The translations under genes were made by a program, and so were the position numbers. The notes under the pieces are model-generated. The model was not told the origin of the DNA, searched no databases, and worked only from the letters and a program-made list of their open reading frames with translations. DNA of 64,000 nucleotides from Parietichytrium sp. I65-24A (taxonomy: Eukaryota; Sar; Bigyra; Thraustochytrida; Thraustochytriidae): contig BLSF01000077.1 in assembly GCA_012862575.1 (NCBI GenBank), forward strand, positions 72,390 through 136,389. The letters run 5' to 3'. Positions 4,774 through 44,171 of the stretch are shown here, piece by piece (the first letter of the stretch is position 1; each line of letters starts with the position of its first letter).

Positions 4774-7064
4774 ATGATTCGTGCAGTAGTTCGAGTGCGC
4801 AAATGCTCAAGCGAAGCGCCTGCGGTAATTGCAAATGCGAGCTCCAGTGAGAGCGGACAGGGGCGCGGAGAGTTTGTGCAGATTGGTGGGCGAAGTTTTG
4901 GGGTATCTGCGTGCGTGGACGGGACACAGAGGGATGTATTCGAGGCTGCCGATGGAGCTAAATTAGTGCGGCATGCTCTTGATGGCTATGCCGCAACAGT
5001 CTTTTCATTTGGTCAGACTGGAGCTGGGAAAACTTACGTAAGTTGTGAGGTCGGAAGAAATTCTCCTTCCCCAGATCGGAGCCACACCTAACCGATTTCT
5101 TTCGCACAGTCGATGTTTGGAACAACGGGAACTGATGGGTAAGTTCTTCAGACGTTGTTGGAGGGTTTGTTTTTTTTGCAAAAATCTATTTCTCACATTT
5201 TTTGCCCATACGATGGCCACGGCTGCTTCCGGGCTCACATCGGCGATGTAGCTGTTTTGGTCTGTCCATTGAGACTTTGTATCGCGCACTCGAGACGCCA
5301 GAGTATCAGAATGTCTCCATAAAATTGAGCAGCGTTGAAATTTTCAACGAAAAAGTGATTGACTTGCTCGGGACTCTGGACAGTTCAAAGCCGCACAAGG
5401 TGAGGCACAAGGAGCCGGAATCATTGGGTTTGCAGTGGTCTGCTCGCGAAAATGGCTTCATCGTGAAAGGGGCAACATTTGTCGAATGCAAAACGAAACA
5501 AGTTGCGCTGGATATGTTGAAGCTCACAATGTCGACAAGACGAGTAGGTTCACACCGGATGAATTCGAGATCAAACAGAAGTCACTGTATTACATTTATT
5601 TACATCAGCAACCCGGAACAGAGCACTTTTGGCAAATTGACATTTTGCGACCTTGCTGGTTCTGAGAGACTGAAAAAGACTGAAAGTACTGATCCGAAAG
5701 TCTCTGGACATATTAACAAGTCTTTGTTTACTCTCAGTAAGGTGATACGCTGCATCGAAAAGAAAGTCCGGGCTCCCTTTCGCGATAGTGCGCTCACGAA
5801 AGTACTCTGCTCATCTCTTGGCGGAACAAGTATGGCCACTCTCATCGCATGTGTCTCAGATCGGGAAGATGACGTGTCTGAATCAATCCGTACCCTCCAA
5901 TTCGCTTCGCGTACCATGAAAATCGAGAATCACCCAGTTGTGCACCGAAGCAAGCACGAGCAGCTTGTTCACGAGCTGAAAACCAAGATAAGAGACCTAG
6001 AAACGCAGAACGCGATTCTTCTAAAAGCTCTTGAAGAAAAGGAAGTGGAGTTAGAGCAGCGTGAAAAATTGGTGGAGGAACAACTGGAAAGTCTCAAATC
6101 GAGCAGCGACGTGAAGCAGGAAAACACAGCTGCCGAAACCGACCATTTGTACTCAAGCGAAAGTTGGTGCACGGAGAGCGACGATGAGGAGAATGGTGAC
6201 GATGTTCCGGAAGAGAACGATTCGCCCAAGGACGGAGGTCCTGCAGATTTTGAGGACAACCCGCATCGACTGGGAAAACCAAATCAAGGAACTGAGAATG
6301 ACCAGAAGGTGGCATTCGAACCACATGGCTCACGGAACTCGAATGAGGCAGAAGACACTCAAATGAAAGCATACTTGACAAACTTCCTTCATAGTTATTT
6401 ACAAGCGAAGACAGCCTCGCGACCAGTCCAAGATGAGGCGCAGTACCAGCAGAACGAAATAACGACTCGGGCGAGTCCACACTCCAACCTTCGAAGTGAA
6501 GCTATTCGCATTCCTCAGACCTGGTCAATGACACAAAATGTCAACGGTAGCGCTGTGCCTGCTGCGAGCGTTTCAAAAGCATCGGTCCCGGAGATTCCCT
6601 CGCGATCTGTTGGCGTCAGTCCCCGGACAAAGCGAATACTCAAGCCAAACCAAAGTAAAGGACGGTCCAGCGCTCGGACAACTCAAGTAAAAGGCTTTGA
6701 TCAGTACAATAGACGTGGCGAATCACACACGGAATCTCGTTACGAGCCAGAAATTCAGTTTCATTCGGAAGATTTGGGGTGGGGGGTCGCTGGGGAAGAT
6801 GTCTCTGCAGGTCCTCTGTCCAGTAGTGTCAAAATTCCGGACATCCAATCTCACAAGATCTCGGTTGTGACTTTAGCAAGTCCAACAAAGCGTAAAGGCA
6901 TTCGAAAACCTGTGAGACATTCCTCTAAAAGTCCACAAAAACGCAGTGGGATGAGATTGCAAATTCCATCTGTAAGCGAGCAAGAGAAGCAAAACATGAA
7001 ATCCGTCCTTTCTTCATGGATGTCAAATCATCGAAACAGAAACTCTGACTCATTTTGCTATTGA
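4774..7064 (+). CDS. Kinesin motor protein, three exons
   Basis: Exons 4774-5037, 5110-5138 and 5252-7064 join in frame to 701 residues; introns of 72 and 113 nt have GTAAGT donors. The motor domain starts at the N-terminus (VVRVRK). It contains the P-loop GQTGAGKTY, which continues across introns 1 and 2 as SMFGTTGTDG, then switch I (NSRSNRSH), switch II (DLAGSERLKKT) and INKSLFTLSKVI, followed by RTLQFASRTMKIEN. All nucleotide-binding motifs are intact, so an active plus-strand-encoded microtubule motor is expected. A coiled coil follows (about residues 270-320), then a long acidic and Ser/Arg-rich tail without a recognised domain. ATG 4774 was chosen because it precedes the conserved first strand closely; an in-frame ATG at 4702 would add 24 residues. 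Kinesin subfamily is not assigned. Confidence 0.92.
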
Positions 7065-18706: not shown

Positions 18707-19944
18707 ATGTTACCACGCAACTCGCAGCTGCGGACAGCTCTTGCCTGCTTTGTCATCTTTGCTCTGTTGTTTTGGGTGAAAGAACGGATTCTTGGTGATG
18801 ATGCGAACGTCGCTTTAGAGCCTTTGGGCAGCAGCGAAGCTGTCATACTTCGAGAAACAGTCCACGACTCGGACAATCATGCGCCTCAGAGAGAGTATAG
18901 TGTGAACCCGTCTGATGCGGGATTGGAGTTGTTCGCACCTGGTAGTCTTGCGAATACGAGCAGACTGGAGGTGCTAAAAAGATGCAGCAAGGGGCATGCC
19001 AAGTTTTCGGTCTATTATAATTTTTGCGCATATTCGGTACGTTGAAAAGTTGCCGTCTAGCTTTCGCCCTGGATGTGTGACTGACTTTTTGTTTGCTCGA
19101 GTACGTCTGCAGCCAGACTTCAAGGTTCTATTGTATGTAATCCCAAAAGCTGGAAGCTCCACTCTAAGGCACGCCATGAAGGACCCGGGCTCATTTCAAG
19201 CAAAAGAGCTTCCGCCGTTTGAGTGTTTGCGTATGTGGAACGATGAAACTGCGCACTACATCAAAGGAACATTGGTGAGAGAGCCTCTTGCAAGATTCTT
19301 TTCGGGATACGACGAAATGATGAGCCGGCTCATGATGGAAGCGAACAGACAACCGCTAGCGAAATATGCCCGTTTCTTTCAAGTACGTGTACCATCGTGA
19401 CGTTCTCGTGTTTCACTTACTTTTTGCCCTGCTAACATGAACATGAGTGTAGCCCTTTCAAAACGCAACATCTCGGGACTATAAAGCTCTTTTCGGCGAC
19501 ACGGAAGGGGTCGCCAAACTTACAGCTGCATTCGAAACTTTCGTAGAAGACTTTGACGGCAAATCTCTAGTTGACATCCACTTGCACCCGCAAACCAATC
19601 AGCTTTGGAATATTTACACGGACAAAGTCTTCGATTTAGATGTACTCCTTGAGTTGAGCGACTTTGACGAAGCAATTGACGCACTCGCAAATCGAGTTGG
19701 CGCTGCGCCACCACGTAAAAAGGTGGGAAGGTCAGCGCCAAGAAGATTTAACGTGTCCGCATTATCGTCAGCTACTGTCCAGAAGATTTGTGTTCTGTTA
19801 GCGAGAGATTTTTGCTGCCTAAACTACCCGCTCCCGGAGCCTTGCACCAGAGAAAATCTTGCACAGGGAAGCAGGGTGATGTGTCAAATTTTGCCGAACA
19901 AGACAAGGGTGGGGGAGCCTGACATAGACTTTATTCTGTTATGA
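18707..19944 (+). CDS. Type II membrane sulfotransferase, three exons
   Basis: Exons 18707-19036, 19113-19382 and 19453-19944 join in phase 0 to 363 residues, with introns of 76 and 70 nt. A signal anchor (about residues 9-25, ALACFVIFALLFWV) is followed by a lumenal stem. The catalytic part shows a 5'-phosphosulfate-binding loop (YVIPKAGSST, directly after the first splice junction) and a 3'-phosphate motif (VREPLARFFSGYDEM), as in the carbohydrate sulfotransferase families that use PAPS. The C-terminus has LNYPLPEPC, common in HNK-1/chondroitin-type enzymes. It should act in the Golgi, sulfating a glycan; the acceptor cannot be read from the sequence. The short distance from anchor to catalytic loop (about 90 residues) is typical. 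Confidence 0.85.
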
Positions 19945-20092: not shown

Positions 20093-21514
20093 TTACTTGG
20101 TCGGGAGAACCTCACGCTTCACCCCGATAAGGAGGTCGCGAGAGATTGCCGTCAAAAGCTGTTCGTCAGAGAACTCCTCGTAGTTGTCTGGCGGATGAGG
20201 CACCACCATGTACCTGCAATCTGCGGTGCTGTCATGGACTCTCAGCTGCACCTCGTCTGGAACCACGGTGCCAAACTCGGCCAAAACCTTTCTTGGCTCA
20301 CGTACAACCCGCGAGCGATAGGAGCGTGACTTGTACCACGCTGGAGACGGCCCTAAGAGCCCCGTCGGGTAGCAACTGCAAAGGGTGCACACGATTACGT
20401 TGTGCACATCTTTGGAATTGAATACGGTGACCAGCTTTGTTGCTGCGTGCGGATTGCTTCCCTCCATACCATTGTCTTTAAGTGCTGAATTTGCGTCCTT
20501 TTCGAGAGCAGCACGGAAGCTTGCATCTTTCCAAGCCTTGAGCACAATTTTCGCACCGTTTGACACCGAGCCCTTGGACTCTGCGGCCTCTACAGCTCCA
20601 CGAAGTTCCTCGCTTGTCATTGCGCCTTTCGCGATCAAGGCTTCAATGAGGCCGGTAGCAAATTGTTCGTCAAAAGACTCCGGTCCTTGGGCGTCGATCG
20701 CGTTTTGCTCCACTTTGACTCGCTCTTCATGGCTGTGTTCCTCCCCATCATCGTGATGGTGGTGGGCATGGTCGCCATGACTGTGACCATGGCCGTGATC
20801 GTGGTCATGGTCACCGTGCGAGTGGTGCGGCGGCGAGATCGACCGCTGGCGGCTTCGTTGCTCTTCCAACTCGCTCTCTGTAGCCGCGCGAAGCCATGGC
20901 TGATAGATTTCGATGTCCACAGTGTCGTTGGCGCTCCCATCGTACAGCTCCCAAATGTCTTGCTGAAAGAAGCGCACCCGGTACAGAGGCTGGGTTTTGC
21001 TTTCTTCGTGAAAAGCAAGCTGCTCAGGCTGCTTGAAGTCGCCTACGTATCGCTCGATACGTCCCACAACATCAAAAATATAACCTGGGGTGCGCAGGTG
21101 TGGCTTGCGAAAGCAAGTCTTAAATTTTTCAGAACGTACACGTACGAGGTCGTTGACTTCGAAGCGCTTTTGATTGTCCTCGGTAGCTTCGTCACGCGGC
21201 AAGATGTACTTGTTGACGTCCTCGCTCGTGAGCACCCCACGCTCAAGCATGATCTGCATGATTGACCGCGCCCATTTTCCATAGTACGTTGAGTTCAAGT
21301 ACACTGGCCGAGGTAAGTTCTCCACTCCCCTCCGCATCTCGTCCACACTCAGCAGCTTCTTGATGGCCAGGACTGCCAGAAGCGAGTGAATTTGCTTCTC
21401 CCAGAACACCATCGGCGAGTCCACGCACCTTTCTGCATCGAGCGCCGCGTAGAAGCTCGTATCGCCTCCCACATCATGCGTTCCGAGAGCGCCAACGTCT
21501 CCGCGAGTCGCCAT
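20093..21514 (-). CDS. Fused beta-alpha nitrile hydratase, cobalt type
   Basis: 473 residues from ATG 21514 (MATRGDVGALGTHDVGG); the open frame extends further upstream, but the GTHDVGG start matches bacterial beta subunits. Beta part about 1-210: FWEKQIHSLLAVL, YYGKWARSIMQIMLERG, PHLRTPGY, LYRVRFFQQDIWEL and VDIEIYQPWL. Linker 230-262 holds about 16 His among Asp, Gly and Ser. Alpha part about 268-473 contains the metal-site motif VCTLCSC (Cys 376, 379, 381), then GPSPAWYKSRSYRSRVV and PRKVLAEFG. Thr after the first Cys is typical of cobalt enzymes (iron enzymes carry Ser). The enzyme hydrates nitriles to amides. In bacteria the subunits are separate genes with an activator; a fused, His-rich form is known from Monosiga brevicollis. 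No targeting signal is clear from ATG 21514. Confidence 0.93.
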   Translation of the reverse strand: MATRGDVGALGTHDVGGDTSFYAALDAERCVDSPMVFWEKQIHSLLAVLAIKKLLSVDEMRRGVENLPRPVYLNSTYYGKWARSIMQIMLERGVLTSEDVNKYILPRDEATEDNQKRFEVNDLVRVRSEKFKTCFRKPHLRTPGYIFDVVGRIERYVGDFKQPEQLAFHEESKTQPLYRVRFFQQDIWELYDGSANDTVDIEIYQPWLRAATESELEEQRSRQRSISPPHHSHGDHDHDHGHGHSHGDHAHHHHDDGEEHSHEERVKVEQNAIDAQGPESFDEQFATGLIEALIAKGAMTSEELRGAVEAAESKGSVSNGAKIVLKAWKDASFRAALEKDANSALKDNGMEGSNPHAATKLVTVFNSKDVHNVIVCTLCSCYPTGLLGPSPAWYKSRSYRSRVVREPRKVLAEFGTVVPDEVQLRVHDSTADCRYMVVPHPPDNYEEFSDEQLLTAISRDLLIGVKREVLPTK

Positions 21515-23322
21515 CTTATATCCTATAGCCTCCAAGCGAGTCTCCCAACCACACGAGATGGCTTTCTTACCGTTGCTTTCTTGGTCTGCCAGTGCTCGTC
21601 TCGATTCACTGTGCGAGAGAGTTGGCTCTCCACGTCCAACTCCTTTCACGAACAGAAACGCCACCGAGTATTGAGTACTCACAGTACTCACTGTTCCAAT
21701 GTGGCGTTGCGTTGTGCTCTGAGTACTGACTGGCTCTGAGTACCTTTACGAGTACTGAGTATTGTGAGTACAGAGTACACAAGTCTCTCACTATTTCCCA
21801 ACGTGTCCTCTCTCGTCTCTCTTTCACTTTCCACTTTTCACTTTCACTTTCACTTCTCTCATCTTCTCTTGCTTGTCTCATTCTTCCCATCGCATCCGTC
21901 GTGCCGTACTTCTATATTTATACGTAGAATAGTCGTAGTGCGCACACACCAGCGAGAAAGAAGATCAGAGTTGACATGTGAGATCTTTTTGTCGTGTGAG
22001 ATGGAGTTTAGCTTTAGTGATGTTCCTGATTGGCTGCGAAATAGATTGTTGGAGAAAGACCTGAACTAATGGGATCTGGTGGGTGGGAAAAGAAAGGGTT
22101 GTGTGGCAGGCTGTAACTATTTGGTACCGGTACGATGAAATTTACAAAAGGATTCTGAATTCTGAATTCTGAATTCTGGATTTTCATTGACTTTAGTTTA
22201 AATTGTGAGTGACCTTTACTTGTACAAGTCTGAGGCAATGAAACAATCAATCAAGGACTTGCTTTTTACTTGCTTCTTCCAAAAGCCATTCTTTCTTGTT
22301 TGTTTGTTTGGTTGGTTCTTTCTTTCGACTCTTCGACAAGCCCCTCTCGATTGTAAAGTAATTGACTGTTATCTAAAATCGATCAAGCAACTGCAAAATC
22401 ATTCAACTGAACAGTGAGAACACGAAAAAAGCAAAATAAGACAAGTCCAATGACTGACTGCTGTTTTGTCCATTTGAATTCTGAAATGTCAACAAAAGCG
22501 GACTGGGAAACAGAACAGGGGGGAGATGGGGAGAGAGCATTCTCAAATGAAAGCGTCTCTCTGTCTTCCCTCATTCTCCAAACATATTTTTCTTTTCCCC
22601 AAAGCTCGGTATCTTTCCGCCGCCCCTCCGCACTGCATGTGAGCGAGATTGCCCAACGCACGATGGCGTCCATGGTGGACAGCATTGCGGTGCGCCAAGG
22701 ATCGCCAAGTGAAGAAAGCAAGATAGCCGCTTCGCCCCACTTTTACTACACGCTTTTCAACATGATCAAAATACACGAGTGCGGCGCTGAATATATATAT
22801 CGCGCACGGGGTACACTGAGGACTGAGGACGGAGAATTGCGTGGAGCTGGCGAGGCGATGGCGAGCGGATGATCCAGGGAGCGCGGTGTTGGCGTCGGGG
22901 TAGTTTGTTTGAGTGTAGTATTTGTCATTATTTGTCGGTCACAATTTGGCGTATGCCGAACTGGAATGAAAGTGTGCTTTTGACGATCAATCTAATCGAC
23001 CTAATCGACCTGTGGACGAAAAACATGTATCTAAGCTCGGAATCTCCAACCTCAAGTCTGTCTTTGTCGCGGTACTGAGTACTGTGTTGATTAGCTGTGG
23101 ACAGGAAGCGAAGGCGAATGAACAGAATTGATAGACTCTCGGATTGTATGAACAACAGGGTCTCATGTGCTCGCAGGCACGTCTTCGCAGTTGGAAACAC
23201 TCGTTGGGGAGTAACTTTAAAATTCCTCTAGATACGAGAGGAGCGCAGTCGGAGCAAAAGGGCTTCAGGTGGTGTTGAATGATTGATTGCGTGCGAATAC
23301 TAGGCTCGTAATTATGGACAGA
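21515..23322. other. Intergenic with microsatellites
   Basis: Contains GAGTACTGAGTACT-like repeats (about 21670-21775), CTTTCACTTT repeats (about 21828-21860) and an AATTCTG run (about 22151-22178). A 152-codon plus frame (22414-22872) has no domain and ends in low-complexity sequence; I do not call it a gene. Confidence 0.55.
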
Positions 23323-43396: not shown

Positions 43397-43514
43397 AAGC
43401 TCGGCCACCCTTCATGTCGTGCACCGGAACTCATCCGAACTCCGAAGTTAAGCCATGACAGGCTAGGTCAGTACTACCGTAGGGGACTAGGTGGGAAGCC
43501 CTGGTACCGAGCTT
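43397..43514 (+). rRNA. 5S ribosomal RNA, copy 1
   Basis: 118 nt. The internal element GAAGTTAAGC sits at nt 48-57, the same place as GAAGCTAAGC in standard eukaryotic 5S numbering. Helix I pairs AAGCTCGG with CCGAGCTT, and helix II pairs TGTCGTG with CATGACA. The gene is followed immediately by a T run, the RNA polymerase III stop signal. The promoter is partly internal, with a TATA-like box upstream. A second copy follows 481 bp downstream. Confidence 0.95.
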
Positions 43515-43545
43515 TTTGTCGCAATTTTTTTTGGAGATTATTTTG

Positions 43546-43994: not shown

Positions 43995-44112
43995 AAGCTC
44001 GACCACCCTTCATGTCGTACACCGGAACTCATCCGAACTCCGAAGTTAAGCCATGACAGGCCAGGTCAGTACTACCGTAGGGGACTAGGTGGGAAGCCCT
44101 GGTGTCGAGCTT
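43995..44112 (+). rRNA. 5S ribosomal RNA, copy 2
   Basis: 118 nt, nearly identical to copy 1. Helix I differs by paired changes: AAGCTCGA with TCGAGCTT instead of AAGCTCGG with CCGAGCTT, so base pairing is kept. In helix II one G is replaced by A, giving one weak position. A T run follows the gene. The same upstream box and flank are present. It is on the plus strand, 160 bp upstream of the OMS1-like gene. Confidence 0.93.
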
Positions 44113-44171
44113 TTTGTCGCAATTTTTTTTTTCGAGGTCGAGATTATTTTGAGTCTGCAAGCTCTCCAAGC

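Follow-up and report, generated by a model that had tools for sequence, protein, structure and literature searches.

The window, by which we mean the whole stretch of 64,000 nucleotides analysed here, belongs to contig C77 of an assembly of 42.5 Mb in 172 contigs and carries on its minus strand a gene for a nitrile hydratase (NHase) whose beta and alpha parts lie in one protein. The plus-strand frame at 20093-21514 is interrupted by stops, and the minus-strand frame is open over 21691..20093, which amounts to 532 codons counted from GTG. The first ATG of this frame, at 21514, gives a protein of 473 aa and matches the start of a bacterial betaN protein in alignment; from the open frame, the Pfam matches and this alignment we annotate the coding sequence of a beta-alpha fusion NHase at 20093..21514 on the minus strand, with no intron needed.

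Three Pfam families match above the Pfam cut-off and, in the numbering of the 532-aa frame, follow each other as NHase_beta_N (70-162, E 8e-20), NHase_beta_C (171-268, E 2e-14) and NHase_alpha (346-524, E 5e-65). On the minus strand of the window the betaN domain lies at 21185..21514; it shares homology with the betaN subunits of bacteria and, more remotely, with the activators of cobalt-type (Co-type) enzymes; the SH3-like betaC domain, placed by Pfam and alignment, occupies 20888..21184, and the alpha domain, placed by Pfam and by matches in the PDB, occupies 20096..20680. The joint between beta and alpha (20681..20887, minus strand) is about 66 aa long and contains a His-rich stretch at 20723..20833, which sits where bacterial alpha subunits have their own His-rich N-terminal tail. 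With 16 His in 37 residues this stretch is far from chance, given that the median His content in the alpha cores of related bacterial enzymes is 1.7%. The translation also contains the cobalt-type active-site motif VCTLCSC, at 20372..20392 of the minus strand. An initial annotation had described one gene encoding beta, a His-rich linker and an alpha part with VCTLCSC, and the single frame and the Pfam order betaN-betaC-alpha bear this out; its count of about 16 His stands as well.

Among known structures the protein matches nitrile hydratases, many of them named as cobalt-type, and, more weakly, thiocyanate hydrolase. It misses the NCBIfam equivalog cut-offs, with 201.7 against 249.85 bits for alpha (TIGR01323) and 105.2 against 152.2 for beta (TIGR03888), low scores that would be expected of a diverged fusion since these models are built on two-gene bacterial proteins. 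Judged by its sequence, the gene most likely encodes a cobalt-type nitrile hydratase that belongs with the beta-alpha fusions of eukaryotes and is predicted to form amides from nitriles and water.

The final helix region of betaN (bacterial pattern YY..W...LIEKGV; in the window within 21185-21514) is similar to alpha's first helix region (within 20096-20680). The betaN and alpha profiles cross-match weakly, and MAFFT placed one against the other in a mixed, misaligned alignment of beta and alpha fragments; this likeness possibly reflects an old duplication.

Host genome and residency of the gene

Unspliced searches of the genome found one copy of alpha and one of betaN, with nothing further for betaN at E up to 10, and none of the 14 control genomes gave a match to NHase alpha. 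The same window holds eukaryotic-looking genes (kinesin, PH, VASt, LRR, C2H2 finger, helicase and PRPS), and the GC3 of the NHase gene, 0.627, falls among the values of nine other window ORFs, which span 0.483-0.702. As the window and its contig both carry eukaryotic genes and GC3 is similar, the NHase gene looks resident in a eukaryotic genome and is not, on this evidence, a contaminant. Viral contigs yielded no relative to patterns drawn from this single protein, the reach of which is thus that of close relatives.

A fused DHFR-TS is a mark of non-opisthokonts, and in this genome DHFR and TS are fused in one frame. A fungal-type fatty acid synthase, known as a single frame from Schizochytrium, likewise occupies a single frame, of 4180 aa (L009, L010; contig C40). 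Searches of the genome found no member of the chlorophyll-binding family and no match to PfaA above the cut-off; two TPI genes are present, and a GAPDH part was not seen by eye in frames within about 1.5 kb of them. A short 18S pattern, with one mismatch allowed, had no match. The genome fits a labyrinthulomycete-like heterotroph, a reading with which the labyrinthulomycete genomes described in PMC10101102 (36 to 66 Mb, GC 43-47%) are not at odds, and an opisthokont host is improbable. The His-rich joint would then be no opisthokont mark: given this reading of the host, its presence here argues against the opisthokont character that Marron et al. (2012, PMC3323583) took it to be, while recording it in Thecamonas also.

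Two 5S rRNA genes lie elsewhere in the window, at 43397-43515 and 43995-44113, spaced by about 600 bases. The neighbour of the NHase gene at 19119-19941 is sulfotransferase-like and has an apparent single intron, with a weak match below the cut-off in its first exon and none in its second.

Bacterial relatives and their gene order

A tblastn search of plasmids gave 178 records, all below 60% identity, and the top two places are three-gene enzymes, of Streptomyces and Planktothrix. A scan of bacterial genomes confirmed 592 stretches, of which we examined the best 80; these loci were picked by closeness to the window alpha, and their make-up is therefore no census. Within the best 80 of 592 the order betaN-betaC-alpha is found in 68 of the 80 loci and the order betaC, alpha, betaN in three; a second betaN copy comes before the genes in one locus and after them in one, betaN and alpha are fused and followed by betaC in one and stand alone as a fusion in another, a fused beta precedes alpha with no activator in one (L050), alpha, beta and activator follow each other in two, and alpha stands alone in two, on contigs that end early.

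Activators were assigned with a profile built on five known ones, and we did not count as activators the second copies of betaN in L023 and L101. An activator-type gene was detected in two of these best 80 of 592; where alpha is flanked on each side by 1.5 kb or more, as in 73 loci, 71 show none. The L050 locus, from Paenibacillus abyssi (5169-6573), consists of a fused beta and then an alpha with a tail of 15 His, with no activator detected nearby.

His-rich tails of the alpha subunit

The N-terminal tails of alpha in the best 80 of 592 loci hold a median of five His and a maximum of 17, the latter in L023; at least three are present in 67 of the 80, at least five in 44 and none in four. The four loci with zero tail His are loci with no detected activator; among 76 bacterial relatives that have no detected activator, 64 have at least three. 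All these counts depend on alpha starts chosen by rule, GTG included, and the two-gene sequence L112, which has no usable start, was excluded from them. The set of 80 three-gene sequences that we used for the compositional comparison consists of 75 from the genome scan (best 80 of 592) and five from plasmids, and the median His content of its tails is 15.3%; the corresponding values are 1.7% for the alpha core, 3.1% for betaN and 3.3% for betaC.

We considered the His tail as a substitute for the activator by comparing tails with and without activator genes, and do not claim it: at least three tail His occur in 68 of the 80 three-gene sequences and in nine of the 13 activator-bearing ones, and the His counts of the two groups do not differ significantly (Mann-Whitney p 0.095). 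Nine activator-less three-gene sequences (eight actinobacterial and one from Eremiobacterota) have few His, from one to four, and the activators themselves (n=13) carry 1 to 8 His within their last 45 residues. Because activator-bearing enzymes have such tails too, and the difference is not significant, His beside alpha is common to these enzymes in general and no mark of a missing activator.

In two bacterial ORFs, L031 (3154-4149) and L080 (5557-6588), a single frame encodes both betaN and alpha, and the joint bears a His motif; betaC is a gene of its own after the fusion in L031 and was not detected in L080. Their joint sequences, SHDHDGKPIQED in L031 and DHDHDGKPIQED in L080, share HDHDGKPIQED, and THTHDGKPIQED (HDGKPIQED) is present in L044 and L060, where alpha is separate and its tail free. 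The sequences closest to the two fusions are L094 and L100, whose tails are also free and rich in His but lack that motif; as L044 and L060 are less close, the motif that they share with the fusions may be older or convergent. Whichever its origin, fusion in L031 and L080 has moved a His-bearing tail into the joint.

Phylogenetic placement

The trees hold bacterial and a few archaeal sequences, the window protein being the sole eukaryotic one. In the alpha tree of 100 sequences, the bootstrap of which had not fully settled, the window protein falls with 80 three-gene and two undetermined sequences, apart from 17 two-gene sequences (97/86); with alpha alone, the AU test did not reject a placement of the window protein with the two-gene sequences (p-AU 0.135). 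The five nearest sequences by path in the beta tree (97 sequences) are all three-gene. In the combined tree of beta and alpha, which has 96 sequences and omits L103 (a long branch, left out by our choice) and L058, L064 and L080 (no full beta), the window protein groups with 69 three-gene sequences at 100/100, on a branch of 0.54. Next outside these 69 stand the two-gene L108 and L050, in neither of which an activator was detected. The nine activator-less three-gene sequences with few tail His, mostly actinobacterial, go with three two-gene sequences in the combined tree (81/83), but in the alpha tree they are neighbours of the other three-gene ones.

The AU test rejected a grouping of the window protein with the 17 two-gene sequences (5e-6). 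As that constraint also forces those 17 together, we rely on a grouping with 12 two-gene sequences that form one side of the free tree, chosen after the tree was seen, which was likewise rejected (p-AU 9e-7). The window protein is itself a long branch (1.4), and its placement outside the 69 three-gene sequences was not rejected (p-AU 0.124), so that it may be either nested within them or sister to them. In sequence, then, it appears as kin of the three-gene, activator-less class of NHases; being a single ORF and not three genes, it is a fused relative and not a member of that class.

Activator search and cobalt supply

The initial annotation had supposed that a separate activator would be missing, and in unspliced searches of the genome we found no Co-type activator: PF21006 returned the window gene alone at E up to 10, and TIGR03889, a model that is also silent in every control genome, returned nothing. 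The PF21006 search bears on the activator because betaN and activator models cross-match when our own profiles are used, the Co-type activators being distant kin of betaN. No NicO transporter was found in this genome; five of the 14 control genomes give a match.

The genome contains nine cobW-domain matches, all above the Pfam cut-off. The three proteins that were fetched all have CxCC, and two of them have His runs, for example EHGHGHSHGDHG in L113; the motif GxxGxGK is present in L114 and L115 and absent from the L113 frame. The two His runs of L113, which accompany a CVCC, closely resemble the His joint of the NHase.

Discussion

Fused NHases are known and in print for many protists (Marron et al. 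2012, PMC3323583; Foerstner et al. 2008, PMC2603476), and the view of the initial annotation that their eukaryotic spread is patchy is supported; Marron et al. report NHase genes across five supergroups, with fusions in several. A likeness between three-subunit and eukaryotic enzymes is equally in print: Guo et al. (2020, PMC7329996) call the three-subunit ScNHase of Streptomyces canus similar to eukaryotic NHase and describe it as working with no activator, by direct uptake of cobalt under reducing conditions, with its betaN part, AnhD, acting as a metal and subunit-swapping chaperone. In a literature search conducted largely without subscription papers we met no tracing of the His joint to an alpha tail. 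No paper that we found brings together thraustochytrids and nitrile hydratase, and the labyrinthulomycete papers among the matches listed are without the enzyme.

The reading that we hold with moderate confidence is that the window protein is a fusion from bacterial three-gene NHases in which betaN, and not the His stretch, replaces the activator. The fusion would have arisen from, or would share an ancestor with, three-gene enzymes ordered betaN-betaC-alpha, for the most part having no separate activator gene and bearing a His-rich N-terminal alpha tail; joining of the three frames in operon order would then have made the alpha tail into the joint. The betaN domain would do the work of the activator, as AnhD is reported to do in the S. 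canus enzyme, so that no Co-type activator would be needed and cobalt would be inserted directly into alpha; the His stretch, which can probably be dispensed with, would at most raise the local concentration of metal. Weighing against this reading are the missed NCBIfam cut-offs, the AU result for alpha alone, the long branch of the window protein and the tree of Marron et al., in which eukaryotic and bacterial sequences separate with 100% bootstrap. Given the three-gene neighbours, their tails and the 100/100 tree, gene order, His stretch and independence of an activator probably predate the fusion.

The initial annotation had instead proposed the His stretch as a built-in cobalt carrier in place of the activator. 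The 16 His do adjoin alpha, the genome searches found no Co-type activator, and most bacterial relatives with no detected activator have at least three tail His; we nevertheless regard this proposal as very improbable and do not uphold it, for His tails accompany activators too, four loci with no detected activator have none, and a review (PMC7193024, citing Yang 2018) states that in Monosiga the enzyme does not need its (His)17 region to incorporate metal. Joints in other eukaryotes point the same way, that of Fragilariopsis being described by Marron et al. as without compositional bias and that of Salpingoeca as having only two His. A Pseudomonas beta-alpha fusion with a Pro-Gly joint was expressed with and without the activator gene by Xia et al. 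(2016, PMC4709657), who report that activity was detected and still regard the activator as a chaperone of the fused enzyme. Taken together, the reports on ScNHase, on (His)17 and on the Pseudomonas fusion make betaN the likelier substitute for the activator in our analysis. Cobalt might also be supplied in trans by a cellular GTPase of the CobW type (COG0523), a family to which Nha3, the activator of an Fe-type NHase, is assigned (PMC7689651), and the nine cobW-domain matches, with CxCC in all three fetched proteins and His runs in two, are in keeping with this. The presence of cobW says little, however, since the family matches 13 of the 14 control genomes and NHase alpha none; moreover, VCTLCSC is the Co-type motif and not the Fe-type case of Nha3, and the review PMC7193024 speaks of eukaryotic NHases as having no activator gene found, so that we consider supply in trans unlikely.

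The origin of the gene may also be sought in an ancient presence of NHase in eukaryotes, for which Marron et al. provide the occurrence in five supergroups, the lack of common intron positions and a tree that sets eukaryotic apart from bacterial sequences with 100% bootstrap. Against it, the combined tree puts the window protein among or next to three-gene sequences of bacteria, and the prokaryotic enzymes are described in Marron et al. as two separate genes; we find this explanation doubtful, if somewhat less so than supply of cobalt in trans, and an ancient eukaryotic presence is compatible with a three-gene bacterial source. For eukaryotic NHases at large, we would give about an even chance to descent from the bacterial three-gene class with betaN as activator, by one fusion in operon order that gave a self-maturing protein, the 'opisthokont' His stretch being inherited and then kept or lost by lineage.

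Were the derivation from three-gene enzymes true, the eukaryotic fusion would have a concrete bacterial source, and the extra inversion that Foerstner et al. needed for the beta-alpha order would no longer be required. The question of activator-free cobalt loading would shift from the His stretch, reported to be dispensable, to the betaN domain, and bacterial enzymes, natural betaN-alpha fusions among them, would be on offer for tests.

Comparison with known systems

The enzyme of Monosiga brevicollis and the eukaryotic fusion family have in common with the window protein a single chain in which a His-rich joint links beta to alpha, the Co-type motif and the want of a known activator. The Monosiga joint is a (His)17, whereas the 16 His of the window protein are interspersed with D/G/S/A; the Monosiga gene has one intron, and the host of the window gene, unlike Monosiga, is probably a non-opisthokont. 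ScNHase (AnhD-AnhE-AnhA) is a cobalt enzyme that shares the order betaN-betaC-alpha, with no activator gene reported, but is made of separate proteins, as is the toyocamycin NHase, for which three subunits are described and alpha alone is reported to be active. The two-gene Co-type enzymes share domains and active-site motif with the window protein; they have separate genes and an activator (NhlE, NhhG or P14K) and are not its nearest relatives in the combined tree. In thiocyanate hydrolase, the chains of which (PDB 2dd4) match the window protein, beta is likewise split and the gamma subunit resembles alpha, but the subunits are separate, and the window protein scores 161.2 bits with TIGR03887 (cut-off 291.45) against 201.7 bits with the NHase alpha model.
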